A stretch of DNA of 37,211 nucleotides from Leptolyngbyaceae cyanobacterium RM1_406_9 (GTDB taxonomy: Bacteria; Cyanobacteriota; Cyanobacteriia; Elainellales; Elainellaceae): contig JAAUQZ010000018.1 of NCBI GenBank assembly GCA_012033355.1, positions 1-37,211 of the forward strand, read 5' to 3'. Below are positions 1,033 through 15,736 of this stretch, in pieces. The notes below the pieces were generated by a model. The model had not been told where the DNA came from, searched no databases, and was given only the letters and a program-made list of their open reading frames with translations. Position numbers and translations under genes: made by a program. Within the stretch, counting starts at the first letter, position 1. Every line of letters begins with the position of its first letter.

Positions 1033-1719
1033 TTATGTGGATTGGAGGGTTTCGATCAGGGCGGTGGAGGGGGCGATCGCGCCAAATACGCCGCCCTGCA
1101 TTGTCACCATTTTTAGAGCTGCAAGGTGGTTGCCGTAGTCGCTGGCTCCGGTGCAGTCGGAGAGCAGCAGGCATTCGTAGCCGCGATCGTTGGCATCGCG
1201 CATCGTGGTGTGGACGCAAACATCGGTGGTTACGCCTGCCAGAATGATGTTTTGGATGCCTTTGCGCTGAAGCAGCAGGTCGAGATCGGTGGCGTAAAAG
1301 GAACCTTTGCCCGGTTTGTCGATGATGGTTTCGCCAGGGAGGGGAGCCAGTTCGGGGATGATTTCCCAACCGGGTTCGCCGCGCACGAGAATTTTGCCGC
1401 AGGGGCCGGGGTCGCCGATGCCCGCACCAATTTGGCGCGATCGCCACTGTTTGTTTTCAGGCAAGTCTGACAAGTCGGGACGGTGCCCTTCGCGGGTGTG
1501 CATGATGTGAAATCCCTTTTCACGCATCACTCCGAGCAGCCGCTTAATTGGCTCAATGGGGGCACGAGTGAGGGAAAGGTCATAGCCCATCTTGTCTACA
1601 TAGCCACCGATGCCGCAAAAGTCGGTCTGCATATCGATGATCAGCAGCACGGTATTATCTGGACGTAGCTCACCGTTGTAGGGATAGAGATAGGGTTCTG
1701 AGTTGACGTAAAGCCCCAC
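1033..1719 (-). CDS. biuH: Biuret amidohydrolase-type cysteine hydrolase (isochorismatase fold)
   Basis: 228 residues. Biuret hydrolases convert biuret to allophanate plus ammonia in the cytoplasm. The cysteine-hydrolase triad is D29 ([10 protein letters not shown]), K135 ([10 protein letters not shown]) and C168 ([12 protein letters not shown]); Q208 lies in [11 protein letters not shown]. These sit at a constant offset of seven from the Asp36/Lys142/Cys175/Gln215 numbering I recall for Rhizobium leguminosarum BiuH. The stretches [20 protein letters not shown] and [12 protein letters not shown] also match BiuH as I remember it. The start is GTG, preceded by an excellent Shine-Dalgarno at 1723-1731. 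It lies between a formamidase-like gene and the transporter ATPase. Biuret hydrolase is favoured over triuret or ureidoacrylate hydrolase, but substrate specificity inside this family cannot be proved from sequence. No allophanate hydrolase lies in the window. Confidence 0.85.
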
Positions 1720-1722
1720 GAT

Positions 1723-1731
1723 TCACCTCCT
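1723..1731 (-). promoter_or_regulatory. Strong Shine-Dalgarno of the biuret hydrolase gene
   Basis: AGGAGGTGA on the minus strand is a nine-base match to the 16S rRNA tail. The AGGAGG core ends 6 nt before the GTG at 1719, which fixes that start. Many neighbouring genes lack any recognisable site. Confidence 0.85.
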
Positions 1732-1754
1732 AAAGTTTTCCTCCCAACGTCTCG

Positions 1755-1856
1755 TTACGAGGCTCTGCCTCGTAATGCAGAACTAGAGGCTCTGCCTCCT
1801 CAAGCACAAGGGGAGGCAGAGCCTCCCGACTTACATTCCCAAGCAGAGCTTGGGAA
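1755..1856. repeat. Cluster of four palindromes sharing a GGCTCTGCC / GCAGAGC core
   Basis: It fills the gap between the formamidase and biuret-hydrolase genes. Perfect or near-perfect palindromes lie at 1755-1775 (arms TTACGAGGC/GCCTCGTAA), 1786-1798, 1811-1827 (arms GGGAGGC/GCCTCCC) and 1836-1856 (arms TTCCCAAGC/GCTTGGGAA). A decayed copy of the last two modules is at 3204-3252, and a related TTCCCAAGCT palindrome occurs twice at 26661-26768. This is a dispersed repeat family. Transcribed, each forms an mRNA hairpin inside the operon. Confidence 0.9.
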
Positions 1857-1872
1857 CGAGGGAGATGGTTGA

Positions 1873-2892
1873 CTAGCCGGATATGTTTACTGGCATCTCT
1901 TCACCCCGGTAGCTGCGGGTTGGAGTGGGGAAACCACAGGAAGTGCCATCGGTGTGAACGACTTGATCTTCCCAGGGAAGGCGATAGTTGCCGTTCACCA
2001 AATCTTGCATATAGGTGTAGGGGCAGTCTTGCGCTCCACCTTTAACGGCGGTGTAGCCGCGATGCCCAAACTGATAGATATTATTTTCAACCGACCAGTG
2101 CTGACGGGCTTCACGCACCAAGTCGGGACGCAGTTCGGCGGTGATAATCTCGTCGGGGCGGTGACTGCCCATTGCTATCGGTGTCCCGTCAAAGTTGACG
2201 AACATCCCTTCACCCATTGAGTCAAAGGTGCCGTCAGTGCCGCACATACAAACCGAAGCGGTGTACATCAGGTTGCAAAAGGCGTTTGCCTGATTGGTAA
2301 TACGCCACGAATGCCGAATGGGAGCGGTGTAGCCCGCTGTGCGAATCATGATTTCGGCTCCTTTATAGGCACACTCTCGCGCCATTTCGGGGAACATTCC
2401 GTCGTGACAGATAATTAGGGCGATCGCACTACCGTTCGGACCTTCACATACTGGAATCCCAATATTTCCAGGCTCCCAGGGTTCTACAGGCACCCAGGGA
2501 TGCAGCTTGCGATAGTAGAGCCGCAGTTCACCTTTGTCGTCGAGAATGATGCCGCTGTTGTAAGGATTGCCGTGCGGGTTGTATTCCATGAGCGAAAAGC
2601 AGCCCCAGATGTGATTATCTCGACAGGCAGTCTGAAACGCCTCAACTTCGGGGCCATCCAGCCGACACATAATCTCTGGATTGGTGTCCATCGATAGCCC
2701 ATGCAGGGCGTATTCCGGGAATACCACCAGATCCATCGTGGGCATATTGCGCCGAGCTTTGCTCACCATGTTGCAGATGCGATCGCTTTGCGCTGCTAGG
2801 TCATCGGGCGTAACTACATTAGGCAGTTGCAGTTGCACCATGCCAAGAACTACGCCGTTAGGAGATTTGTTTAAGCCGCCAAGACCGTTCAT
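1873..2892 (-). CDS. amiF: Formamidase-type amidase (nitrilase superfamily, AmiF-like)
   Basis: 339 residues from the ATG at 2892. Formamidase hydrolyses formamide to formate and ammonia in the cytoplasm. The nitrilase triad is E60 (VVFPEYALHG), K129 (YYRKLHPW) and C162 (LIICHDGMFPEMA). Helicobacter AmiF uses E60, K133 and C166, so E60 coincides exactly and the other two differ by the same four residues. The C-terminal LPWEDQV region is also more AmiF-like than AmiE-like. A longer frame reaches 3000 but its first 36 residues are translated from heptamer repeats, so I reject that start; no Shine-Dalgarno is visible. The next gene downstream is the biuret hydrolase, 153 nt away, and the locus encodes a BMP-type ABC importer. 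The true substrate may be another small amide or N-formyl compound. Confidence 0.85.
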   Translation of the reverse strand: MNGLGGLNKSPNGVVLGMVQLQLPNVVTPDDLAAQSDRICNMVSKARRNMPTMDLVVFPEYALHGLSMDTNPEIMCRLDGPEVEAFQTACRDNHIWGCFSLMEYNPHGNPYNSGIILDDKGELRLYYRKLHPWVPVEPWEPGNIGIPVCEGPNGSAIALIICHDGMFPEMARECAYKGAEIMIRTAGYTAPIRHSWRITNQANAFCNLMYTASVCMCGTDGTFDSMGEGMFVNFDGTPIAMGSHRPDEIITAELRPDLVREARQHWSVENNIYQFGHRGYTAVKGGAQDCPYTYMQDLVNGNYRLPWEDQVVHTDGTSCGFPTPTRSYRGEEMPVNISG

Positions 2893-2946
2893 AGGGATGA
2901 GGGATAAAGAGTGAAGGAGGAGGGATGAAGGATGAGGGATGAAAGG
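2893..2946. repeat. Heptamer-type tandem repeat (GGGATGA units)
   Basis: Degenerate 7-bp units (GGGATGA, AGGATGA) run upstream of the formamidase start. The same repeat occurs inverted at 3621-3652 and again at 5811-5840. Short tandem heptamers of this kind are common in filamentous cyanobacterial intergenic DNA. Confidence 0.8.
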
Positions 2947-3018
2947 TAAAACTGGGTTCAATGGCACTGGCTGAAGCTTCCACCTTTGCCCTGAACTCAA
3001 GTTCGGGCTAAAAGCTCA

Positions 3019-3110
3019 AGTCCGTTAAAACGGACTGCAATCCTTTAAGGAGCGGGAGCTTAACTCGTTTCAACGGGTTTTAGCTTTGAGCCTGAGATTG
3101 ATCTCAAGGC
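3019..3110. repeat. Palindromic repeats with one half of a 49-bp long-range inverted repeat
   Basis: A palindrome with arms AGTCCGTT/AACGGACT lies at 3019-3036. The segment 3062-3110 is the reverse complement of 5929-5977 with two mismatches by eye. The paired copies bracket the two permease genes. The rest of the 759-base gap before 3651 holds a decayed palindrome module (3204-3252), the 21-bp minisatellite and heptamers; I see no gene in it. Confidence 0.85.
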
Positions 3111-3260
3111 TGTCAAGTCAGTGCTATTCAACAGTGGATTGACGCTTGTTTTCAGGTAGAACTTGGAAATGCATTTGATGTGGCTCTACCCCATGATTTT
3201 GGAAGACGGAGCCTCCAGTTCTGCATTCCAAAGCAGAACCTTGAAACGAAGCTTGCTAAA

Positions 3261-3554
3261 TTCAGAGGATGAGAGTTTAAACAGGAACAATGAGGGTTTG
3301 AACTAGAACGATGCTGTTTTAGATAGGAACGATGTTGCTTTAAGTAGGAACGATGTTGCTTTAAGTAGGAACGATGTTGCTTTAAGTAGGAACGATGCTG
3401 TTTCAAACAAGAACGATGCTGTTTTAAGCAGGAACGATGCTGTTCTGAGTGAGAACGGTGAGGGTTGAAACAGGAACGATGCCGTTCTAAATAAGAATGA
3501 TGAGGGTTTGAGCTAAAACGGTGAGACTTTAACCTGAAATGCTGCAACCTTGAG
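3261..3554. repeat. 21-bp minisatellite, 14 tandem copies
   Basis: Fourteen consecutive 21-base units with no insertions between them. Three central copies (3324-3386) are identical, and divergence increases toward both ends. The core is GAACGATG followed by T-rich and A-rich positions. Because 21 is divisible by three, one minus frame stays open (LKQHRSY heptapeptides), but that frame has no other protein-like feature. The array lies inside the transporter/enzyme locus, between permease 2 and the formamidase gene. Confidence 0.93.
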
Positions 3555-3620
3555 CTTCAATAGCGGCACTGTGCAGACCATTCAACAATGCGATCGCCCC
3601 ACCCTCTGCCCCCACCCCCC

Positions 3621-3652
3621 CTCATCCCTCATCCTTCATCCCTCATCCCTCC
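3621..3652. repeat. Heptamer tandem repeat (TCATCCC units)
   Basis: Units of TCATCCC and TCATCCT abut the stop codon of permease 2. The array is inverted relative to the one at 2893-2946. Confidence 0.8.
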
Positions 3653-4577
3653 TAAGTGTCTGTTCCCAATGCACCTGGCGCACCGGACAAGGTTCGCTTA
3701 GGGGAACAGGTGATGATCATAATCAGCAACGTCAACACATAGGGGGCAGCGTTGAACAAGTAATAGCCTTGCTCAATGCCGACCGACTGAAGTGCCGGGC
3801 CAAGGGCCTGGGCACCGCCAAACAAAAGGGAAGCCCAGAGACACTGAATCGGATTCCAGTGGGCAAAAATCACTAGAGCGACCGCCATCAAGCCTTGACC
3901 GCTGGAAACTCGTTCGCTCCAGAGTCCGGGATAGTAGAGCGACAGGGAAGCGCCGCCAATTCCGGCTAAGAAACTGCCTGCGACGACGCTAAGCATTCGC
4001 ACCTTGAAGATAGAAACGCCCATCGCTCTAGCCGCTTCGGGACTGTCGCCCACTGCGCGGATGAATAAGCCCCAGCGAGTGGATTGAAAGAACCAGTGCA
4101 TTAGGGGGCGATCGCCACTCCCAGCAAAAACAAGGGGCTAATCTGTAACGCTGACTGCACAGGCGGCAAACTGCTCCAGGCTCCCAGGTTAATCGTTGCT
4201 AACTGCGGAGCCGAGGGCTGAATGAAGGGTTTGCCAAAGAAAAAGGCAATGCCGCTGCCAAAAATAATCATGGCAATGCCCACCGCTACATCATTTACCC
4301 TGGGCTGCTGGGAGAGCCAGCCGTGAATTAAGCCAAATACCACACCCGCCAGTCCAGCAACAACCACGCCCAGCCAGGGCGACCCCGTGAGATAGGAAAT
4401 GGCGTAGGCGCTCATCGCACCCATCAGCAATGTTCCTTCTAAACCCAGATTGATTTTGCCGCTTTTCTCGGTCAGGCATTCGCCCAGGCTGACAAACAGG
4501 AAGGGCGTTCCGCCGCGCATCGTACCAGCGGCGATCGCCAACGGTACGCCCCACCAACCGAGTGCTTCTGTTGCCAT
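3652..4577 (-). pseudogene. BMP-family ABC transporter permease 2, split by a one-base frameshift
   Basis: Two adjoining frames together make one permease. The N-terminal part (4101-4577, 158 residues from ATG 4577 with AAGGAGAT upstream) ends GVAIAP-stop. The C-terminal part (3652-4101) begins MHWFFQSTRWGLFIRAVGD, joined by a TAATG overlap. Adding one C to the run at 4104-4108 reads GVAIAPLMHWFFQS without a break and gives about 308 residues, the usual length for YufQ/BPD-transp-2 permeases. Both halves keep hydrophobic helices and family motifs (GKINLGLEGTLLMGA; AVGDSPEAARAMG). The lesion touches the HIP1 octamer at 4108-4115. This could be a sequencing error (favoured), a real null mutation, or coupled translation of two halves. 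It is the second membrane subunit of the importer. Confidence 0.88.
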
Positions 4578-4720
4578 TTTTAGAATCTCCTTGAGATGAA
4601 GGGGCTAGGGGGCTGGGGACTAGGGAGTAAAGGTGGGCGGTGCCCACCCTACTGGATAGGTTTCAGGATTGGTGAAGGGCAACCCTTCTCTCCGATGCCT
4701 AGCCTCTAGCCCCTAGCCCC
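4578..4720. repeat. Intergenic inverted heptamer repeats and hairpins between the two permeases
   Basis: GGGGCTAGGGG-type units at 4598-4625 face CCCCTAGCCCC-type units at 4698-4721, so the whole gap can fold on itself. Inside lie palindromes at 4632-4648 (GGTGGGC/GCCCACC) and 4676-4688. The permease 2 ribosome-binding site follows directly. Confidence 0.75.
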
Positions 4721-5803
4721 TCAAACTACTGCCGTAACTGTGGGTGCTGACGGAGCCTTGACAATTGGCTCTTTGAAGATGGCAAATTTGCCGTAGAGCG
4801 ATTCGCTAAACAGGACGACGAGGAAGACGAGTCCCTGGAAGACCAGAACAGTTGCGTCGGGGAGGTTGTGCGATCGCTGCAAGATGCCGCCGCTGGCAAG
4901 AATGCCACCCAGCATGATAGACACGAGCGCTGCCGCCAGAGGATTGTGTCGGGCGATGAAAGCAACCAGGATGCCGCCATAGCCATAATTGGCATTCAGC
5001 GATTCGTTAGCGCGACCGTGAACGGCTGCGACTTCGACCATGCCTGCCAAGCCCGCGCAGGAGCCTGCCAGGAAACAAATTGCCATCGTTAGTTTGCCAA
5101 CAGGCAACCCCGCAATCCGAGCGGCGCGAATGTTGCCTCCGGCAGTCCGGGCGGCAAAGCCAAAGGTGGTGCGCTGAATTAGGAAGTAGGCGATCGCACA
5201 AGCAACCAAACCATAAATCAGCCCATAGTGAATTCGTGTGCCGGGAATCGTGCCCAGCATATTGATTTCAGCGATCGGATAGGTAGAAGGCTTGTTGAGC
5301 GAACTGGGGTCGCGCATGGGTCCGCCGACTAGGTGGTTAAGGAGGGCGATCGCAATGTAGTTCATCAATAAACTGCTGATAGTTTCATTCACAGCGCGGT
5401 AGTGCCGCAGCGCACCGACCGCACCAATCCATAGACCGCCTGCTACCATTCCCGCAAGCGCCATACCGATCTGCACAACGGTAGGCGAAGCGGTAGATAG
5501 CGCCAGTCCAGCCGCAACTGCACCCAGACCACCGACGACTAACGCGCCTTCATTACCAATGATTACCAACCCTAAACGGGCAGGAAGCGCAGTACATAAG
5601 GCACTCAGCATCAGCGGCGAAGCTCGAATCAGCGTATTTTGAAACGTACTCCAACTGCCAAACGCCGCCTTCCAAATTGAGGCATATACACCAAACGGAT
5701 TGGCTCCTGCCGCCGCACAAAATGCGCCAAACAGAATCAGCGAAAACAAAACTGCCCCAACCGGAATACAAATCGACTCCAAAGTTTTGCGATGAGAGAG
5801 CAT
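4721..5803 (-). CDS. BMP-family ABC transporter permease 1
   Basis: 360 residues from the ATG at 5803 (MLSHRKTLESICIPVG). A start at 5848 is possible in frame, but its extra 15 residues are translated heptamer repeat, so it is rejected. The protein is a polytopic inner-membrane subunit of the YufP/BPD-transp-2 type, with about eight to ten hydrophobic segments. Family motifs include GLVIIGNEGALVVGG, NETISSLLMNYIAIALLNHLVGG and a cytoplasmic-loop region FGFAARTAGGNIRAARIAG. It would form the translocation pore with permease 2 and receive substrate from the lipoprotein encoded upstream. The gap to permease 2 is 143 nt, so co-transcription is likely but not tight. No Shine-Dalgarno is evident. 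Confidence 0.92.
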   Translation of the reverse strand: MLSHRKTLESICIPVGAVLFSLILFGAFCAAAGANPFGVYASIWKAAFGSWSTFQNTLIRASPLMLSALCTALPARLGLVIIGNEGALVVGGLGAVAAGLALSTASPTVVQIGMALAGMVAGGLWIGAVGALRHYRAVNETISSLLMNYIAIALLNHLVGGPMRDPSSLNKPSTYPIAEINMLGTIPGTRIHYGLIYGLVACAIAYFLIQRTTFGFAARTAGGNIRAARIAGLPVGKLTMAICFLAGSCAGLAGMVEVAAVHGRANESLNANYGYGGILVAFIARHNPLAAALVSIMLGGILASGGILQRSHNLPDATVLVFQGLVFLVVLFSESLYGKFAIFKEPIVKAPSAPTVTAVV

Positions 5804-5810
5804 GGGGAAA

Positions 5811-6060
5811 GGATGAGGGATGAAGGGTGAGGGATGAGGTTTATCCAATAGCTTTGGAATAAATCTCAGGTTCAGGTTAGAACCCGTTGAAACTGAGTTG
5901 CACCAACGGCAGGAGGCATTGCACTAGCGCCTTGAGATCAATCTCAGGCTCAAAGCTAAAACTCGTTAAAACGAGTTGAGATGAGGTTCTGCCAGAAGGT
6001 TCTAGTCAGTTTTAACTGACTTATGCTATTAACCCGGAATTGATTCCAGGGCGGGGTATT
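5811..6060. repeat. Repeat-filled gap: heptamers plus the second half of the 49-bp inverted repeat
   Basis: Heptamers GGGATGA/GGGTGAG lie at 5811-5840. The segment 5929-5977 is the inverted partner of 3062-3110, containing the palindrome ACTCGTT/AACGAGT. Further short palindromes lie near 6005-6025 (TCAGTTTTAACTGA core). I see no coding potential in this 310-base gap. Confidence 0.85.
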
Positions 6061-6113
6061 GGGTAACAGACCAAGCTGGTGCAACCGAAGTCATTACCCT
6101 TTGTTTACGAGCA

Positions 6114-7286
6114 TTAACTGGCCACACTGCCAATCACGCCTTCGACCAAATAATTCATCTGCTCCAGCACAGGGTCTTGCTGCTTCAGGGATTGACCCGC
6201 TTCAACGACCACTGCGCCCGTGTTGTCTTTGATTTCGCCGTTATAAATCACCAAACTGCCGTCCATGAAAGCAGCTTTGGCTGCTTCGGCATCCTGCTTT
6301 GCCTGCTCACTTACCGCTGGCCCGTAAGGTGAAAGCTTCCAGAAGCCTTCTGCTATGCCGCCCCGAAGAATATGGGGAATGCTGCCATCCATCAGCGTTT
6401 TGCCGGCGTGAATGTCTTCGGCAATTTTGGAATATACGCTCGTCCAGTCCCACTCAGCGCCCGTGAGATAGCCTTTGGGAGCCAGAGCCGTCTGGTCAGC
6501 GTGATAGCCAGAGGCAAAAATGCCTCGCTTTTCTGCTGTTTCCATCACCACTTTGGGACTATCGACGTGACAGGTCAGCACATCAATGCCCTGGTCAGCC
6601 ATACTGTTTGCGGCTTCTGCTTCCTTGACTGGCAGTGCCCAGTCTCCAGTAAAAATAGCCTGCGTTGTAACATCAGGTTTGACGCTACGGGCACCCAGCG
6701 TGAAACTGTTGATGTTTCTCAGAACTTGAGGAATTGGTTTTGCGCCGATAAATCCGAGCTTTCCGGTTTTAGAAGTGTGAGCAGCGACAATTCCAGCAAT
6801 GTACTGCGCCTCGTCGATGTAGCCGAAGTAGCTGGCCACATTAACCGGGTGGGTTCCTTCCTGGTAAAGTCCCCCGCAGTGGAAGAACTGCACGTCGGGA
6901 TATTCTTCCGCCAGCTTGAGAATGTGAGGGTCAAAGTAGCCAAAAGATGTGGGGAAGAGGACGCTTGCCCCGTCGATGTCGATCATGCTTCGCATCGATT
7001 CCTCAACCGCAGTGGTTTCTGGAACGCTGGCTTCTTCAACGATCTTGACCCAATCAAAACTCTCTGCAATCCCGGCTGCTCCTTCTGCGTGAGCCTGGTT
7101 ATAGCCGTAGTCATCTTTGGGCCCGACGTAAATAAAACCGATTGTGATTTGGTCTGCGGCAGTGCCCCCTCCCTCGGCGGTACTGCACCCGGTGCCAAAG
7201 CGAGCAGTAATGCCAAAGGCCGTCGTGGCAAGCAAGCCTCGAATGACTTGGCGGCGAGATAAGTGTAGAAGCTTTCTATTACTCAC
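6114..7286 (-). CDS. BMP-family substrate-binding lipoprotein of an ABC importer
   Basis: 390 residues from a GTG start preceded by GAGAGGA. It binds the transported compound outside the cytoplasmic membrane and delivers it to the permeases. The N-terminus carries a twin-arginine motif (SRRQVIRG, 10-17), a hydrophobic stretch and a Cys at 34 in FGTGC, so it looks like a Tat-exported lipoprotein; the lipobox is imperfect. The body has the periplasmic-binding fold of the PnrA/BmpA family: TIGFIYVGPKDDYGYNQAH, FPTSFGYFDPHILKLAEEYPDV broken into family blocks, ASYFGYIDEAQYIAGIVA, and QGIDVLTCHVDSP. It is the first gene of the minus-strand locus. Ligand unknown: purine nucleosides are bound by some relatives, while the enzymes downstream suggest an amide or ureide. 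Confidence 0.92.
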   Translation of the reverse strand: MSNRKLLHLSRRQVIRGLLATTAFGITARFGTGCSTAEGGGTAADQITIGFIYVGPKDDYGYNQAHAEGAAGIAESFDWVKIVEEASVPETTAVEESMRSMIDIDGASVLFPTSFGYFDPHILKLAEEYPDVQFFHCGGLYQEGTHPVNVASYFGYIDEAQYIAGIVAAHTSKTGKLGFIGAKPIPQVLRNINSFTLGARSVKPDVTTQAIFTGDWALPVKEAEAANSMADQGIDVLTCHVDSPKVVMETAEKRGIFASGYHADQTALAPKGYLTGAEWDWTSVYSKIAEDIHAGKTLMDGSIPHILRGGIAEGFWKLSPYGPAVSEQAKQDAEAAKAAFMDGSLVIYNGEIKDNTGAVVVEAGQSLKQQDPVLEQMNYLVEGVIGSVAS

Positions 7287-8392: not shown

Positions 8393-8478
8393 TAAGTTTA
8401 ATTTGCTTATCAATGCGCTTGACAAACTTAATAAAAATCGATTTAAATACTGTACAAACCTAATAAAGCTAAGTTTGT
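8393..8478 (+). promoter_or_regulatory. Promoter with four TAAGTTTGT-like half-sites before the Lrp-family gene
   Basis: TTGACA at 8419-8424 can serve as a -35 box, with AT-rich -10 candidates around 8442-8449. Half-sites: TAAGTTTAA at 8393, ACAAACTTA at 8422-8430, ACAAACCTA at 8454-8462 (one mismatch) and TAAGTTTGT at 8470-8478. The first and last of these three forms make a perfect 9-bp inverted repeat. The two middle copies extend to 14 bases (ACAAACxTAATAAA) spaced 32 bp, about three helical turns. Multiple phased sites around the promoter fit autoregulation by an Lrp-type protein, which wraps DNA; this is inference. Confidence 0.6.
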
Positions 8479-8962
8479 GAGCATAAATTCAGTAGATTGC
8501 AAGGTCTTGCAAAATCTCATGACTCAAGGACGGATTACTTGGTCAGAGCTAGCTGGAATTCTGGAACTCTCTGCTCCTGCAACGGCTGAGCGAGTTCGCC
8601 GTCTTGAAGAGCGCAAAATCATCAAAGGATATACGGCCCTAATTGATCCTGAGGCTGTCGGCTGTGAGCTAACTGCATTTATCGCAGTGACGCTGGAGCG
8701 ACCAGAGCATCGAGCTGCTTTTTTACAGCGAGTACAGGAATTGGCAGAGATTCAGGAATGCCATCACGTCACTGGAGAAGACGACTATTTGCTGAAAGTG
8801 CGATGTCGTAACACAAAAGACTTGGAGCAATTAGTCAGCGAAAACCTAAAAGGGCTACCCGGCATTTTGCGAACTCGAACCACCATCGTGCTTTCAACAA
8901 CTAAGGAAACTCCTATTTTGCCTCTACAGTCTCCAGCCGATTCAGAAATGGTTAAAGAGTAG
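8477..8962 (+). CDS. Lrp/AsnC-family transcriptional regulator
   Basis: 161 residues from a GTG start. An N-terminal helix-turn-helix (about 5-52: VDCKVLQNLMTQGRITWSE, then LSAPATAERVRRLEERKIIKGY) is followed by the RAM/AsnC ligand domain, with ITGEDDYLLKV-type motif HVTGEDDYLLKVRC and a family-like C-terminal strand. Lrp proteins form octamers or dimers that sense amino acids and regulate transport or metabolism. The gene next downstream is a LysE-type amino-acid exporter, so regulation of that exporter is plausible. Four repeated half-sites upstream suggest autoregulation. The GTG overlaps the last half-site, so bound protein would cover the start region. Family assignment is secure; ligand and regulon are not known. 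Confidence 0.93.
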   Translation: MSINSVDCKVLQNLMTQGRITWSELAGILELSAPATAERVRRLEERKIIKGYTALIDPEAVGCELTAFIAVTLERPEHRAAFLQRVQELAEIQECHHVTGEDDYLLKVRCRNTKDLEQLVSENLKGLPGILRTRTTIVLSTTKETPILPLQSPADSEMVKE

Positions 8963-9066: not shown

Positions 9067-9108
9067 AGTTTTAAAGAGACATATGCATCATTGAGGAGAC
9101 TTTTAAGG

Positions 9109-9723
9109 ATGGACATTGGCTTTTTAGGACGAGGACTAATCCTCGGTTTCTCGATCGCTGCACCAGTGGGGCCAATTGGTGTACTATGCATACGCCGCAC
9201 CTTAACTGAGGGACTTGCCTCTGGATTTCTCTCAGGGTTAGGCGCTGCGACTGCGGATGCGATATATGGGTGCATTGCTGGATTTGGGTTAACATTTGTA
9301 GCTGACCTGCTGGTTGAACAAACGCTGTGGATTCGGCTGATTGGGGGCTTATTTCTCTGCTATTTGGGAGTGAAAACCATTTTATCTAAGCCTGCTGAAG
9401 CAGCTATTTCGGGTAAGTCACGCAGTCTTTTTACGGCCTACGCTTCAACAGTTGTATTGACGCTAACCAATCCTGCTACTATTCTTTCGTTTGCAGCAGT
9501 GTTTGCAGGTTTAGGGTTAGCTAGCGCTGGCGGGAACTATGCGGCGGCGGGAACTTTGGTGTTAGGGGTGTTTCTAGGATCAGCGCTGTGGTGGTGTTTG
9601 CTGAGTGGAGGGGTCAGTGTGTTGCGACGACGGTTTAACGCAGAGGGTTTGCAATGGTTAAACAGAATTTCGGGTGCAATTTTGCTGGCGTTTGGTGCGA
9701 TCGCCCTCAGCTTGAGAGGATGA
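9109..9723 (+). CDS. LysE/RhtB-family amino-acid exporter
   Basis: 204 residues from the ATG at 9109, chosen over an in-frame TTG at 9091 because GAGGAGAC lies 8 nt before it. LysE-family proteins are small six-helix permeases exporting amino acids. The N-terminal GRGLILGFSIAAPVGPIG is the characteristic helix-1 motif with APVGPIG, followed by CIRRTLTEGLASGFLSGLG and ATADAIYGCIAGFG. A mid-protein VVLTLTNPATILSFAAVFAG carries the conserved TNP. Length is typical. The Lrp-family regulator immediately upstream parallels the known pairing of regulators with amino-acid exporters. A palindromic repeat separates the two, so an independent promoter is possible. The exported amino acid cannot be told. 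Confidence 0.93.
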   Translation: MDIGFLGRGLILGFSIAAPVGPIGVLCIRRTLTEGLASGFLSGLGAATADAIYGCIAGFGLTFVADLLVEQTLWIRLIGGLFLCYLGVKTILSKPAEAAISGKSRSLFTAYASTVVLTLTNPATILSFAAVFAGLGLASAGGNYAAAGTLVLGVFLGSALWWCLLSGGVSVLRRRFNAEGLQWLNRISGAILLAFGAIALSLRG

Positions 9724-9741
9724 AATAACAGTTTTTAGAAT

Positions 9742-10911
9742 ATGGTTAAACCCCTGCGTCAACTCATTCTAAAAATAGCGCTTGGGCTATATCTGTTTTT
9801 GGCACTTGGCTCAACCTCAGTGGCCTATGCGCTACCAATGCTGCCGCTTGCTCAGGCTGGGTCAATAGAGAGCCTACAGCAGCAGCGACAGCAGATTGAG
9901 CAAGAGCGAGATGACATCCAGAGGGAGCGCGATCGCCTGCAAAACCTGGAGCAATCGGCTCAAGATCGGCTGGGGGGTTTACAAAATACTATTCGCGCTA
10001 CCGCTGCCCAGATTCAACAAAACGAAGCGCAGATTAGATCTGCCACTGAGAATCTAAAGAAATTGCAGGCAGAATTGGCGATCGCCGAAAAAGGCTTTCA
10101 AGCCAAGCAAGTTGGCACCGTCGCCCGACTCCGTTTCTTGCAGCGGCAGCAGGGCGGTCAGGGTTGGGCAGTCTTGCTGCAAAGCAACAATCTCAACGAA
10201 TTTCTCGATCGCCGCCGTCAACTCAAGCTCGTCTATCAAGCCGATCGCAAAATTCTGGCTAACCTACAGGCGCAATTTAACGACCTGAACCAGCGCAAAC
10301 GCACGATTGAGCGCCAAAAAAACGACATCGCCCTGATGACCCAACAGCTTCTCGCTCAAAAAGCTCAGTTTGAAGCCCAGGCAAAAATTCAACAAGACCT
10401 GATTGGTCGTCTGCGCCAAGACCGCAACGCCCTGGAAGAGGCAGAATCGCAGCTAGAACGAGACTCTGCCACGATCGCTGTGATGATTCGGCAGAGACTT
10501 TCCATTCCAGGGCCAGTCATTCGGGGAACCGGGCAGTTTATCTATCCGCTGGTTGGCATTGTCACCAGCAACTTTGGCTGGCGCATTCACCCGATTCTGG
10601 GCTATCGCCGCTTTCACGCCGGAGTTGACTTTGGCGCAAGTCACGGTAGCACGATTCAAGCCGCTGATGCAGGCGTGGTGATTTTTTCAGGCTGGTATGG
10701 CGGCTATGGCAACGCGGTAGTCATTAGTCACGGCGGCAGCTTAACGACCCTTTATGCTCATGCCAGTGAACTTTATGTCAGTCAAGGTCAAACCGTCCAG
10801 CAAGGACAGGCGATCGCCGCTGTTGGCTCCACCGGATTCTCGACTGGCCCGCACCTGCATTTTGAAGTCCGGCAAAACGGCGAACCCGTCAACCCTCTAG
10901 AGTTTCTCTAA
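9742..10911 (+). CDS. EnvC-like M23 peptidase / murein hydrolase activator
   Basis: 389 residues. A hydrophobic N-terminal signal (about 10-30, LALGLYLFLALGSTSVAYA region) targets the periplasm. A long coiled coil (about 43-240, rich in Q, E, R and L) is followed by a LytM domain (about 265-389). The metal-site residues are present: H292 and D296 in HAGVDFG, and H371/H373 in GPHLHFE. With these intact it may be a true endopeptidase and not only an activator of amidases, as E. coli EnvC is. It starts 18 nt after the LysE stop, so co-transcription is possible. The likely role is cell-wall splitting at division. Confidence 0.92.
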   Translation: MVKPLRQLILKIALGLYLFLALGSTSVAYALPMLPLAQAGSIESLQQQRQQIEQERDDIQRERDRLQNLEQSAQDRLGGLQNTIRATAAQIQQNEAQIRSATENLKKLQAELAIAEKGFQAKQVGTVARLRFLQRQQGGQGWAVLLQSNNLNEFLDRRRQLKLVYQADRKILANLQAQFNDLNQRKRTIERQKNDIALMTQQLLAQKAQFEAQAKIQQDLIGRLRQDRNALEEAESQLERDSATIAVMIRQRLSIPGPVIRGTGQFIYPLVGIVTSNFGWRIHPILGYRRFHAGVDFGASHGSTIQAADAGVVIFSGWYGGYGNAVVISHGGSLTTLYAHASELYVSQGQTVQQGQAIAAVGSTGFSTGPHLHFEVRQNGEPVNPLEFL

Positions 10912-11059: not shown

Positions 11060-12187
11060 ATGCCCAAAATTGTTTCTGTTCATTCCTTTCGGCACGGCAC
11101 AGGTAAATCTAACCTGGCTGCTAACCTGGTAGTCAGCATCGCACAGCAAGGACAGCGAGTTGGCATCATCGATACAGACGTGCAGGCTTCTGGAGTTCAT
11201 ACGCTGTTTGGGTTAGATGAAGACCAGGCAGATCGCGTCCTTAACTACTATCTTTGGAGCGACACAGAAATTCAACCGACAGCCCATTCCTTTAACCCTC
11301 TGCTCAAGATCGACCAGGGAGAAGTGGCCGTCATGGGGAGAGGCACTTGCTTAACTCCCTCTAACATCAAAATCAGTGAGATGGCTCAACTGCTGAGAGA
11401 AGGCTACGATACCAGCACTTTAAGTCAGGGGCTATTTGAGCTAAGCCGCCGTCTTGAGCTTGACTATTTGCTGATTGATACCAATCCTGGCTTAAGCGAA
11501 GATACACTACTGGCGATCGCCCTTTCCGACGTGTTGGTGCTAGTGCTGTGTTTAGATCAGCAGAACTTTCAGGGCATTGCTTTGACCCTGGATGTAGCTC
11601 GCAAGCTAGGGGTTCCCCAAATTTTGCTAGTTGCCAATCAGGTTTTGCCTGAATATTTGCAGGACGAAGTTAAACAGCAGCTTGAAGCAGCTTATGGTCA
11701 TCCGGTTGCAGGCGTTTTGCCGTTTTCTCAAGAATTGCTGACCTTAGCCAGCAATGATGTCTTTTGCCTGCGATATCCCGACCATTCCTTAAGTCAAATT
11801 GTTCGAGCGATCGCCAAGCAGATTACTAATATTGGCGTAACCAGACGCGCAGATGCCATGCAAGCTTGGCTCACCGCACCGACCTCTGCCCACACCTCCG
11901 AGCCTGGCATTTCAATGTTTGACCTGCTGCTGTTGCCCGACATTGAGCGACAGCTAGTGAATTGGATCATCCGTCGGGGTAAAGCAACCGTAATAGATTG
12001 TGTTAGCCATACTGGACAAAGCAAAGCGACCATTGAAAAAATTCTGGAAAAACTGGTAGAGCAAGGACTACTGCAATTCAGCCAGGTTGCAGATGACAAA
12101 TATTACCAACCCCAACTCAATTCAGAAAAACAGCGGTTACTCCCCGACCACATTTGGGAAGCCTTAAGAGACACCCCCCCTGAGTAG
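11060..12187 (+). CDS. MinD/ParA-type P-loop ATPase with C-terminal winged-helix-like segment
   Basis: 375 residues. Residues 1-260 form a MinD/ParA/Mrp-type ATPase: deviant Walker A SFRHGTGKSN (9-18), switch I DTDVQASG, Walker B LLIDTNPGLSEDTLLA, and a late LVANQVLPE strand. The signature lysine that opens the classic KGGxGKT motif is Arg11 here. After about residue 290, DIERQLVNWIIRRGKATVIDC and KATIEKILEKLVEQGLLQF look like a winged helix, which would make this a DNA- or protein-binding ATPase. It lacks an obvious amphipathic C-terminal membrane helix and so is not the division-site MinD. It is 148 nt from the transcarbamylase gene downstream. Function unknown: partitioning, regulatory and positioning roles are all open. 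Confidence 0.85.
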   Translation: MPKIVSVHSFRHGTGKSNLAANLVVSIAQQGQRVGIIDTDVQASGVHTLFGLDEDQADRVLNYYLWSDTEIQPTAHSFNPLLKIDQGEVAVMGRGTCLTPSNIKISEMAQLLREGYDTSTLSQGLFELSRRLELDYLLIDTNPGLSEDTLLAIALSDVLVLVLCLDQQNFQGIALTLDVARKLGVPQILLVANQVLPEYLQDEVKQQLEAAYGHPVAGVLPFSQELLTLASNDVFCLRYPDHSLSQIVRAIAKQITNIGVTRRADAMQAWLTAPTSAHTSEPGISMFDLLLLPDIERQLVNWIIRRGKATVIDCVSHTGQSKATIEKILEKLVEQGLLQFSQVADDKYYQPQLNSEKQRLLPDHIWEALRDTPPE

Positions 12188-12335: not shown

Positions 12336-13277
12336 ATGGTAAAACACTTTCTGAGTTTGATGGACTGGTCTACCCCCGATTTGGAGGAATTGCTAGACAA
12401 AGCCACTTTTCTCAAACGAGAGCACTTCAGCACAGGACATCCGCCCGTGATGCGCGGTAAGACTTTGGCCTTGGTTTTCCAAAAACCATCTCTGCGAACC
12501 CGCGTCAGTTTTGAGATCGCTATCCAGCAGTTGGGTGGACACGCGCTCTATCTTTGCAAGGACGATGTGGATATGGGCGATCGCGAATCCATTGCCGATG
12601 TGGTGCGAGTTTTGGGTGAATACGTTCACAGCATTGCAGCGCGAGTTAGCGACCATAACAATCTGCTGGAAATGGCTACCTGGTCGCCTGTTCCTGTGAT
12701 CAATGCGCTGACGAAACATAACCACCCCTGTCAGGCAATGGCTGATGTACTGACGATTCAAGAAGAGTTAGGGCAGTTGGCAGGGCTGAAGGTGGTTTAC
12801 TTAGGTTCCAGCAATCAAGATACCGCCCGTTCCCTGCTGTTTGCGGCGGTCAAGTTTGGCTTTCAGCTAATTCTCAGTAGTCCCGAAGGCTTTTGGATAG
12901 AAGCAGAAACGATCGACATGGCACGGGCGATCGCAGGAGAGCAAGTCGTTCAGTGTGTTTCAAACCCTACCGAAGCAGTTCAGGAAGTAGACGTAATCTA
13001 CACTGACTCCTGGGAGGGTATGGGGATGTGGGAGAAGGTAAGCGATACCGAAGCAACCCGTCGATTACATCTCTTTAGTCCTTATCAGGTCAACGAAAGC
13101 TTAATGGCTCACGCACCCAAAGCTCTCATCATGCACTGTATGCCAGCCAACCGAGGGCAAGAAATTTCTGATGCCGCCGCAGATGGAATACAGTCCAGAC
13201 TATTGCAGCAAGCCCAGAACCGAGTACACGTGCAAAAGGCGATTCTCCTGCATTTAGTAGGCTGTGCTGCTGCGTGA
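12336..13277 (+). CDS. argF: Ornithine carbamoyltransferase homologue with altered ornithine-site motifs
   Basis: 313 residues, normal OTC length. OTC makes citrulline from ornithine and carbamoyl phosphate. The carbamoyl-phosphate site is intact: SLRTR (52-56), HPCQ (130-133) and HC.P as HCMP (268-271), followed by PANRG. The ornithine side departs from the norm: the family GDxxNNVxNS is GSSNQDTARS (157-166) and the DxWxSMG loop is DSWEGMG (224-230), so the serine contacting ornithine is glycine. The core still resembles bacterial OTC (ALVFQKPSLRTRVSFE; SPYQVNESLM). It could be a divergent OTC or a transcarbamylase for another amine. Its stop overlaps the next gene's GTG by four bases, so the two are translationally coupled. 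Family membership is secure; the name argF is provisional. Confidence 0.8.
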   Translation: MVKHFLSLMDWSTPDLEELLDKATFLKREHFSTGHPPVMRGKTLALVFQKPSLRTRVSFEIAIQQLGGHALYLCKDDVDMGDRESIADVVRVLGEYVHSIAARVSDHNNLLEMATWSPVPVINALTKHNHPCQAMADVLTIQEELGQLAGLKVVYLGSSNQDTARSLLFAAVKFGFQLILSSPEGFWIEAETIDMARAIAGEQVVQCVSNPTEAVQEVDVIYTDSWEGMGMWEKVSDTEATRRLHLFSPYQVNESLMAHAPKALIMHCMPANRGQEISDAAADGIQSRLLQQAQNRVHVQKAILLHLVGCAAA

Positions 13278-14584
13278 GAAAAGAAGAGACATACCTTGTC
13301 GTAACGCTTTGGCTGCTGCTGTTGAGTAATGCTTTGGCCTGTCAGGTGTCTGATGTGGTCGCCGTGAGCGGTTTTTTGAGCAGCGTTGGAGTCAACCAAA
13401 TCTTGGTGGTTTGGCTGGTAGATATGCTGCTCACAATTCTGATTACAGGTTTGCAATCCCTGATCGTCGATCGGTTTAACCGCGTCAATTTGATGGGCTG
13501 GATGAGCTGTGGCTATGTGCTAATGCTGGTGGTTTTGAGGGTGTTGTTTAGCCTTCAAGCACCGGGTTGGCTCAACTATTCGCTGCTCTATTTGCTAGCT
13601 GAACAGCAGTTGCTTTTCTTTCCGCTGATGTTTTGGATTCTGGCAAACGATCTGTTTGACATGGCGCAAACCAAGCGTTTATTTCCGCTGATTGCTACAG
13701 GTAGCTTTGTCGGGCAGATTTTGGGGTTGGGATTAGCGGCGATCGCCCCCACCCTCCTCTCCCGACTTCAGCTAGAGCCAGAAGAATTACTCAGTTTGAA
13801 CGCACTGGTTTATTTAGCTGCTTTTCTGTTAATTCAAACCAGGTTGAAAGGCATCAAATTCAGACAAATGACTCAGAAACAAGAGTCAGCGATCGCCGCC
13901 TTAACAGAAGCCTGGAGCTTTGTTCGAGAAGTCTCCTCCTTCCGTTACTTAACAATCTCGATTTTGGCAATTAATGTTTGTCTGACTGTATTTGAATTTC
14001 ACTTTTTGGCTGTCTCCAATCAAGTCTTTAAAGCCGCTGAAGGCTATCAGCAATTTTACAGCTTATATCGTTTAGGACTCACCCTCACGGCGTTCGGTAT
14101 TCAGTGCTTTTTCACAAGCTTTTTCATTAAGATAACAGGCTTAAAAAATGCGTTTATAGCGCTGCCGCTGGCTCAGCTATTTGGCACCTTATCCATGATA
14201 ATCTTTCCTGGAATTGTGGGGGGAGTCGGCGGTTTTTCTTTGTCTAAACTTACTCAATCTACAATTGATGAATCTGCCCGCAAGTCCTTTCAAGCGCTTG
14301 TGCCAGAGGAGCGTCGGGGTAGAGTCAGTATGTTTATGGATAGCTATCTGTTTGCAATAGGTACTGTTATTGGCTGTTTGGCTACAGGTGTAGTTGTGCT
14401 GCTCGGAAACCAATTTAATATTTCGACTTATTTTTATGTTTATTTATGTATTGGACTAATTGCTTGTGGAGTGGCGATCGCCGCCATTTTCAAAATGCGA
14501 ACCGTTTACGAGCAAAGCCTATTTAACTGGCGGTTGAAACGGCGGCAGCGAGGCAAAGCCATTTTAGACAAACTGAATCTTTGA
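13274..14584 (+). CDS. Multi-pass membrane transporter, Npt/TlcC nucleotide-transporter-like (MFS-related)
   Basis: 436 residues with about 11-12 hydrophobic helices. The segment FWILANDLFDMAQTKRLFPLIATGSFVGQILG is reported here by its ends: FWILANDLFD and RLFPLIATGSFVGQ resemble the Npt1/TlcC nucleotide-transporter clan found in many cyanobacteria and rickettsiae. The tail is strongly basic (RRQRGKAILDKLNL region). The GTG start at 13274 overlaps the TGA of the transcarbamylase homologue (GTGA), which shows coupled expression and suggests the carrier moves a substrate or product related to that enzyme. Bacterial members of unknown substrate are common, so ATP/ADP exchange should not be assumed. 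No Shine-Dalgarno is needed if ribosomes re-initiate. Confidence 0.75.
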   Translation: MRKEETYLVVTLWLLLLSNALACQVSDVVAVSGFLSSVGVNQILVVWLVDMLLTILITGLQSLIVDRFNRVNLMGWMSCGYVLMLVVLRVLFSLQAPGWLNYSLLYLLAEQQLLFFPLMFWILANDLFDMAQTKRLFPLIATGSFVGQILGLGLAAIAPTLLSRLQLEPEELLSLNALVYLAAFLLIQTRLKGIKFRQMTQKQESAIAALTEAWSFVREVSSFRYLTISILAINVCLTVFEFHFLAVSNQVFKAAEGYQQFYSLYRLGLTLTAFGIQCFFTSFFIKITGLKNAFIALPLAQLFGTLSMIIFPGIVGGVGGFSLSKLTQSTIDESARKSFQALVPEERRGRVSMFMDSYLFAIGTVIGCLATGVVVLLGNQFNISTYFYVYLCIGLIACGVAIAAIFKMRTVYEQSLFNWRLKRRQRGKAILDKLNL

Positions 14585-14644: not shown

Positions 14645-15736
14645 GTGAACACCGAAAAATTAAAATCTCAAAAGCTTCATTTCATCAGTCTGCAACTTAA
14701 AGTTCTGACAGGTTTCACGCTAGTCTTCAGTCTTGTCTTTGCAGGTGCCTACTATTGGTTTTATCGATTTGCGACTAGCTTTGCACTTGAACAAATTCGA
14801 GAAGATTTAGAAACTACAATGGAGGCGGCTGCCAACGGTACAGACACAGACGATTTTGCGGCTCTAATGAGTCAGGGTACACCCAGAGCAGATGGTTACA
14901 GTGACGATCCGCGCTATTGGGAACACGTAAACTGGTTGGCGCAGATAGAAACCATTGAACCCCGCGCCTACATTTACACCTACACAGCTACCTCAACGCC
15001 CAACAAAATCTTGTTTATCGGTAGTGGCAGTGCCGTTAATCAAAGAATTGACGGCGCAAAGTTTTTAGAACCCTATCAGGAACCTGAAGGAGGAATTCTC
15101 ATGCGAGGGCTGGCAACCGAAATCTTTGATACCGATCCGTTCACAGACGAGTGGGGCATCTGGGTATCGGGTGCCATTCCTTTGACCAATGCAAGAGGCG
15201 AGCGAGTTGGGGCACTAGGAGTTGATTTTCGGGCAGATTATGTCCTGCAAGTGCAGCACCAGATTCGCAGCAGCATTCTGCTCGCCTTTACAATGACCTA
15301 CGGAACTCTGTTTATCCTGGTCTGGGTCGTGTCTCGCATCCTAACGCAGCCAATTGTCAAACTTACTTATACCGCTGAGCAGATTGGGGAGGGAGACTAT
15401 ACTCAAAGCCTATCTTCCCTTTTGAGAGAGAAGCGATTTCGCGATGAGATCACCACGCTAGCCGAAGTATTTGAGATCATGGTTAGCAAAGTGCGGCAGC
15501 GAGAGGAAACTCTAAAACAGCAGGTCGCAGAGTTGCGGATTGAGATTGACCAGGCAAAACGTCAAAAGCGGGTACAGGAGATTGTAGATACAGACTTTTT
15601 TCAGGATTTGCAGATAAAAGCTCAATCTCTTCGCGATCGCCACCACAATGCCATTTCAGATCCACTCTTAGATCCACTCTTAGATCCACTCTTAGATCCA
15701 AATCCAGACTCAGAACCACCTACCAGTTCCCCCTAA
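14645..15736 (+). CDS. Membrane sensor-like protein with extracytoplasmic domain and HAMP domain
   Basis: 363 residues from GTG with AGGA upstream. TM1 (about 19-41) is followed by an extracytoplasmic domain (about 42-210) with a Cache-like GERVGALGVDFRADYV segment. TM2 (about 216-238) leads into HAMP (about 238-292; SRILTQPIVKLTYTAEQIGEGDY), then a coiled coil ending in EIVDTDFFQDLQIKAQSLR. There is no kinase, cyclase or methyl-accepting domain, so the signal must pass to a partner or the protein is a truncated receptor. Near the C-terminus DPLL is repeated three times from a 12-bp tandem repeat (about 15658-15700). It sits 60 nt after the transporter gene; what it senses is unknown. Confidence 0.82.
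   Translation: MNTEKLKSQKLHFISLQLKVLTGFTLVFSLVFAGAYYWFYRFATSFALEQIREDLETTMEAAANGTDTDDFAALMSQGTPRADGYSDDPRYWEHVNWLAQIETIEPRAYIYTYTATSTPNKILFIGSGSAVNQRIDGAKFLEPYQEPEGGILMRGLATEIFDTDPFTDEWGIWVSGAIPLTNARGERVGALGVDFRADYVLQVQHQIRSSILLAFTMTYGTLFILVWVVSRILTQPIVKLTYTAEQIGEGDYTQSLSSLLREKRFRDEITTLAEVFEIMVSKVRQREETLKQQVAELRIEIDQAKRQKRVQEIVDTDFFQDLQIKAQSLRDRHHNAISDPLLDPLLDPLLDPNPDSEPPTSSP

Follow-up and report, generated by a model that had tools for sequence, protein, structure and literature searches.

Which compound does a transcarbamylase carbamoylate once the residues that hold ornithine have been replaced, and does the membrane carrier encoded next to it belong to the same function? The question is raised by a locus in Leptolyngbyaceae cyanobacterium RM1_406_9, within a stretch of 37,211 nucleotides (referred to here as the window). 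An intact open reading frame at 12336-13277 (+) codes for a 313-residue protein of the ornithine transcarbamylase (OTC) family, and its end overlaps a carrier gene at 13274-14584 (+). A first interpretation, made from the letters and translations of the window (the sequence-only reading), had proposed a dedicated enzyme-carrier pair acting on an amine other than ornithine. The locus was compared with 390 cyanobacterial genomes from 160 genera, and the window's own assembly (G000) is 83% complete. The comparison tips modestly toward a non-OTC transcarbamylase that would turn an ornithine-like diamine into a ureido amino acid, together with a dedicated carrier and sensor.

A transcarbamylase with a rebuilt second-substrate site

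The window protein scores 158.9 bits with Pfam OTCace_N (PF02729), 140.6 bits with OTCace (PF00185), and 320 bits with the NCBIfam OTC model TIGR00658 (cut-off 281), and it is 40-44% identical to ArgF. The superfamily signatures SxRT, HPxQ, and HxxP are present as SLRT, HPCQ, and HCMP, within the motifs FQKPSLRTR, HPCQ, GSSNQDTARSL, YTDSWEGMGMW, and HCMPANRG. The NCBIfam models for the knotted transcarbamylases (AOTC, SOTC, and YgeW), a group marked by a proline-rich loop and an extended 120s loop, all score far below cut-off on it. Proteins of its subfamily occur in 4 of the 390 genomes, three from one genus (G000, G001, and G002) and one from another family (G076). In a profile search of the 390 genomes, these four gave E values from 1e-166 to 1e-199, compared to about 1e-82 for the best canonical OTCs.

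The sequence-only reading had called the carbamoyl-phosphate (CP) site intact. The core residues bear this out (S52, R54, T55, R103, H130, Q133, and C268). The Gln of the 80s loop, however, has become Asp in the window enzyme and Gly in G076, and HxLP has Met for its Leu. The larger changes are at the second-substrate site, where the motifs SSNQDTARS, DSWEGMG, and HCMP had been read correctly. The second Asn of GDGNN (N199 in human OTC, numbered as in PMC8517447; N167 in E. coli) aligns with Asp162 in the window enzyme and with a Glu in G076. This refines the earlier view of a rebuilt Asn region, since Asp162 is the N199 equivalent and Gln161 its neighbor; the codons of this loop region, inside GSSNQDTARSL, lie at approximately 12820-12836 (+). 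In the SMG loop (13005-13025 (+), from residues 224-230), the change of Ser to Gly had also been recognized correctly: DxWxSMG, or more loosely DxxxSMG, has become DSWEGMG in the window enzyme and DSWIQTG in G076. This means that S267 is replaced by Gly or Gln, and M268 by Thr in G076; L304 is replaced by Met. The SMG-loop Asp (D263) is kept throughout the subfamily along with the core CP motifs, and the window copy keeps the Met and Gly of the loop as well.

The reference motifs used for this comparison were those of PMC4581275. Canonical ArgF rows of the motif table, from cyanobacteria and other bacteria, are nearly uniform, with the 80s-loop Gln, GDGNN, and HCLP throughout and DxWxSMG in nearly all; the subfamily's four proteins depart from all four features alike. 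Judged from the alignment, nearly every second-substrate position of the subfamily departs from OTC, the SMG-loop Asp excepted, and the rebuilding noticed in one protein is conserved over two distant lineages. AlphaFold2 models built from shallow alignments were poor (mean pLDDT 53.8 and 38.9), and no structural claim is built on them.

It is worth asking whether the enzyme could still be an OTC, specialized in regulation or affinity and making citrulline for export or signaling, with the motif changes as tolerated drift. The identity to ArgF, the score above the OTC cut-off, and the retained Asp, Met, and Gly of the window's SMG loop all agree with this explanation. The genus also lacks the aminomutase discussed below, which leaves ornithine as the most evident diamine on hand. 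Even so, N199, S267, and the 80s-loop Gln, near-uniform among ArgF rows, have all changed, related changes persist in a lineage with just 44% identity, and a canonical argF already serves arginine synthesis. We regard continued OTC function as rather unlikely, and a non-OTC activity of the window enzyme as likely.

A diamino compound is a reasonably probable substrate. If it were a diamine without a carboxylate, such as putrescine, cadaverine, or agmatine, the enzyme would resemble putrescine transcarbamylase (PTCase): the acidic residue at the N199 position and the kept Asp would provide two acids to hold the distal amine, and the Ser contact to the ornithine carboxylate is lost. PTCases, however, are marked by a (Y/W)(G/W)(V/L/I)x loop, a Gln in FxQxSxRT, and a C-terminal end longer by about 20 residues (PMC4581275). 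The window enzyme has EGMG in the loop, Lys in FQKPSLRT, and a length of 313 residues, and it scores 257 bits with the PTC model against a cut-off of 500. The cluster also contains neither agmatine deiminase nor carbamate kinase, and a carboxylate-free substrate is improbable.

A third paralog and its subfamily in two lineages

The sequence-only reading had suggested looking for a second argF. In the window's assembly, a canonical argF is found on contig C384, contig C288 carries a catabolic arcB next to genes for carbamate kinase and an APC-type antiporter, and pyrB is on contig C322. The window gene is thus the third OTC-branch paralog in its genome. The reading was to be given up if this were the sole argF and it complemented an argF mutant with normal ornithine kinetics, and the first half of that does not apply. 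Elsewhere in the assembly (L015 about 4690-5270, which is G000:C165 about 9690-10270), some 65 initial arcB-like residues are fused in frame to the remainder of a carbamate kinase, either what a deletion has left of a second arc locus or a chimera of the assembly.

G001, a relative within the window's genus, has a locus 88% identical to that of the window, while the transcarbamylase lineage of G076 is only 44% identical. Between the window and G001, dN/dS is 0.076 for the transcarbamylase, 0.073 for the carrier, and 0.083 for the Cache-HAMP protein encoded after it. Values this low indicate purifying selection, and all three genes are therefore maintained. Other members of the G076 family are without the atypical transcarbamylase, and the enzyme lineages that are independent of one another number only two. 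A scan of contigs for close relatives beyond the cyanobacteria returned only ordinary OTCs, from Phycisphaerales-type contigs.

The four atypical transcarbamylases group together (100/99), apart from the cyanobacterial ArgF proteins, which are themselves a clade (99/99). A recent duplication of cyanobacterial argF was considered as their origin and set aside in view of this separate ArgF clade. Yet a grouping of the enzyme with ArgF is not rejected by the AU test (p = 0.50), and the trees are therefore compatible with more than one source of the enzyme.

The carrier and its probable coupling to the enzyme

The coordinates and the four-base overlap given by the sequence-only reading are correct. 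The carrier gene (for a protein of 436 residues) begins with a GTG at 13274 and the stop of the enzyme gene ends at 13277, so the two share GTGA; the overlap is also found in G001 and is absent in G076. Its product had been described as nucleotide-transporter-like, which stands as far as remote homology goes. Pfam TLC scores 24.1 bits, just above its cut-off of 21, and a profile of the carrier family matches the plastid ADP/ATP carrier 9j3j with E = 1.9e-7. The NCBIfam NTT/TLC family model reaches just 20 bits against a cut-off of 387, and by these scores the protein appears too remote for the name "nucleotide transporter". NTT/TLC carriers have the charged residues K155, E245, E385, and K527 (PMC10654386). 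The aligned region takes in E245 and E385 of these four, and the window carrier has what are presumably the corresponding Glu; it also has Gln in place of a conserved Lys in the first transmembrane segment (TM1), a position that might correspond to K155.

The carrier family is present in 23 of the 390 genomes, from 14 of the 160 genera. A carrier gene adjoins the transcarbamylase gene in all four genomes that have the enzyme (Fisher p = 9e-6). The carriers of G000, G001, and G076 form one clade (99/96) against the species grouping, with other carriers from the window's family placed elsewhere in the tree, and the tree of the Cache-HAMP proteins leans toward the same enzyme-linked grouping (93/91). 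At the TM1 position, the four enzyme-linked carriers have Gln, compared to Lys or Arg in the other scored carriers (G038 could not be scored). This substitution suggests a matched change of cargo, but the clade and the Lys-to-Gln change could also reflect shared descent instead of adaptation.

Could the linkage be incidental, with lateral transfer having happened to place the transcarbamylase gene upstream of a carrier-sensor pair that has nothing to do with it? There are only two independent lineages, the carrier-sensor pair occurs without the enzyme in other genomes, and G023 has the same synteny as the window minus the transcarbamylase gene. A search for a degraded copy of the gene in that gap and at other loci found none. 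Chance placement would have to account for adjacency in every genome with the enzyme, for the translational overlap within the genus, for enzyme and carrier trees that both unite the same two distant lineages, with the sensor tree leaning likewise, and for a carrier residue change that tracks the enzyme. We consider it very improbable, and functional coupling of the transcarbamylase to the carrier is likely. The dedicated pair of the sequence-only reading has thereby gained support beyond a single overlap, its cargo excepted, and as a whole that reading is supported in part.

Two genes of the genus show disrupted frames: the G002 carrier gene is split across two frames (L046 7220-8526), and the ParA-like gene of G001 appears frameshifted (L045 8084-9212). 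Either sequencing error or decay would explain them.

A carrier-sensor module shared with aminomutase clusters

What the sequence-only reading missed is the conserved module around the carrier, to which a Cache-HAMP protein belongs and, in the majority of genomes, also a KamA-family lysine/arginine 2,3-aminomutase (a radical SAM enzyme). The window's Cache-HAMP-type membrane protein (14645-15736 (+), recognized by Pfam HAMP) has no output domain in this copy and may be a sensor or an adaptor. Its homologue adjoins the carrier in most carrier loci, which makes the two a conserved pair, and they lie side by side at the window locus as well; in G089, the Cache-HAMP-type protein is fused to a histidine kinase. 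A ParA/MinD-like ATPase (11060-12187 (+); family F2, found in 17 of the genomes compared) is a conserved neighbor, often near the carrier or near KamA in relatives. KamA has as its neighbor, in many of these genomes (L116-L130), a ParA/MinD-like ATPase of sequence SIHSYRGGTGKSN.

Further upstream are an Lrp/AsnC-type regulator (8477-8962 (+), family F13) and a LysE-type amino-acid exporter (9091-9723 (+), Pfam LysE 87 bits, family F6), in a synteny that G001 shares and that G023 and G015 share in part. The two fit amino-acid handling, but they persist where the enzyme is absent and so are not linked to it. Promoter and terminator scans returned no more than in shuffled sequence.

KamA is found in 19 of the 23 carrier genomes compared to 11 of the 367 others (Fisher p = 5e-21, with genomes that are not phylogenetically independent, the carrier genomes spanning five families). 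The arginine 2,3-aminomutase model TIGR04468 is above cut-off in G010, G023, and G031, and the lysine 2,3-aminomutase model TIGR03820 in G076 and G089; some members of the family match other KamA models. The carrier genomes without KamA are the three of the window's genus and G015. The contig of G015 breaks off at the point where G010 has KamA, next to an ATP-grasp gene that both genomes share, and the absence of KamA from G015 may therefore be an assembly gap. In the window's genus, a search for KamA gave no match in G000, G001 (99% complete), or G002, and the transcarbamylase is present where most carrier genomes have KamA. G076 has both. No description of KamA-linked carrier-sensor clusters was found in the literature, and this setting is more interesting than the enzyme variant itself.

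Two kinds of ATP-grasp protein accompany KamA. A 440-residue type is found in six genomes plus G015, and a Ddl-like type lies beside KamA in G334, G340, and G376, with a close homologue inside the transcarbamylase cluster of G076. Neither ligase type was found in the window's genus, where the Ddl-like type gave matches only at the level of ordinary Ddl. In G340, a lysine 2,3-aminomutase-like gene, an amidinotransferase, and a Ddl-like ATP-grasp stand in a row (L124 5696-9048). The middle protein matches inosamine-phosphate amidinotransferase (E = 1e-125 to 1bwd), and the row possibly encodes a beta-homoarginine-type pathway.

Other genes also border these loci. Small SET-domain or SET-like proteins are encoded beside the carrier-sensor pair or KamA (L086 3548-4690, L093 7289-7741, and L125 4690-5139). 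At L079 and L092, the neighbors of the module are glycogen-debranching, anti-sigma/antagonist, and phosphatase-like genes, a set reminiscent of the Synechocystis icfG cluster. At 1033-7286 (-), an unbroken series of genes in the window encodes biuret amidohydrolase (408 against a cut-off of 370), formamidase (578 against 406), and a PnrA-like binding protein along with two BMP-type ABC permeases; it looks like an operon for ureide or amide uptake and breakdown. A pathway shared with this operon (1-7.3 kb) was considered and rejected: it is on the opposite strand, several genes off, and no link to the transcarbamylase was seen in relatives.

What might the module make?

The proposed mechanism begins with a second-substrate pocket that would no longer fit L-ornithine. 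With carbamoyl phosphate as the donor, the enzyme would carbamoylate an ornithine-like diamino compound at its terminal amine, and the product is probably an unusual urea-bearing amino acid, not arginine. Going by family and position, the NTT-like carrier, presumably co-transcribed, would move the product or its precursor across the membrane, with export slightly favored over import, and the Cache-HAMP protein would sense or adapt to the carried compound. In most genomes with the carrier-sensor pair, a KamA-type 2,3-aminomutase would make beta-lysine or beta-arginine, and in the window's genus, the transcarbamylase would act in its stead.

G076 has both enzymes, and beta-lysine would be the best substrate candidate there, though a tentative one. 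From its terminal amine to the amine-bearing carbon, the distance is as in ornithine, and its carboxylate is one methylene further, an argument from chemical structure and not from a docked model. Such a shape would suit the G076 pocket because the SMG-loop Asp is kept and the carboxylate-binding residues are rebuilt. In the window's genus, beta-lysine has no visible source, since neither KamA nor the ATP-grasp ligases are there. The substrate may thus differ between the two enzyme lineages, and in the window's genus it could be lysine, ornithine, or an imported compound.

More speculatively, a transcarbamylase of beta-lysine or a similar diamino acid would be a new activity in an undescribed cyanobacterial pathway to 3-amino acids that end in a guanidino or ureido group, with a dedicated NTT-like carrier and Cache-HAMP sensor. 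This rather doubtful scheme would have three branches: arginine 2,3-aminomutase leading to beta-arginine, lysine 2,3-aminomutase with the amidinotransferase leading to beta-homoarginine, and lysine 2,3-aminomutase with the atypical transcarbamylase leading to carbamoyl-beta-lysine. If the main reading holds, about 6% of the sampled cyanobacterial genomes would have a module that couples the synthesis of beta-amino acids or ureido amino acids to a carrier and a membrane sensor, the transcarbamylase would be a natural swap of chemistry with the carrier changed to match, and the cargo of the carrier family would become testable. Databases would name the two genes argF and nucleotide transporter, and both names are probably wrong. 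The enzyme gene is best filed as an OTC-branch transcarbamylase without an assigned substrate, not as ArgF.

How does the locus compare with known systems?

With the ornithine transcarbamylases ArgF and ArcB (TIGR00658), the window enzyme has in common its fold family, its degree of identity, the core carbamoyl-phosphate motifs, the SMG-loop Asp, and its length. Its subfamily differs from them at N199 (Asp or Glu), S267 (Gly or Gln), L304 (Met), and the 80s-loop Gln (Asp or Gly); its gene lies outside any arginine locus, and its clade is separate from cyanobacterial ArgF. Like putrescine transcarbamylase (TIGR04384), it belongs to the OTC branch and has lost the Asn and Ser that contact ornithine, but it is without the PTC loop motif, the C-terminal extension, and the agmatine deiminase context. 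The diaminopropionate and diaminobutyrate transcarbamylases of the viomycin, zwittermicin, and padanamide pathways are a further parallel, being OTC-branch enzymes that moved out of arginine metabolism into a specialized pathway. They have TRWQ(T/S)(T/M)G, with a (T/S)RWQ loop, and HDLP, whereas the window enzyme has DSWEGMG, with DSWE in the loop, and HCMP.

The carrier resembles the NTT/TLC ADP-ATP carriers of plastids, Rickettsiales, and Chlamydiales in remote homology over about 210 residues and in two aligned Glu, presumably at the E245 and E385 positions. It differs from them in falling far below the family cut-off and, in this branch, in the TM1 change of Lys to Gln. The closest likeness in gene content is to the cyanobacterial clusters of KamA-family lysine/arginine 2,3-aminomutases, which have the same carrier, Cache-HAMP protein, and ParA-like ATPase. 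Unlike those clusters, the window locus has the transcarbamylase in the aminomutase's place.
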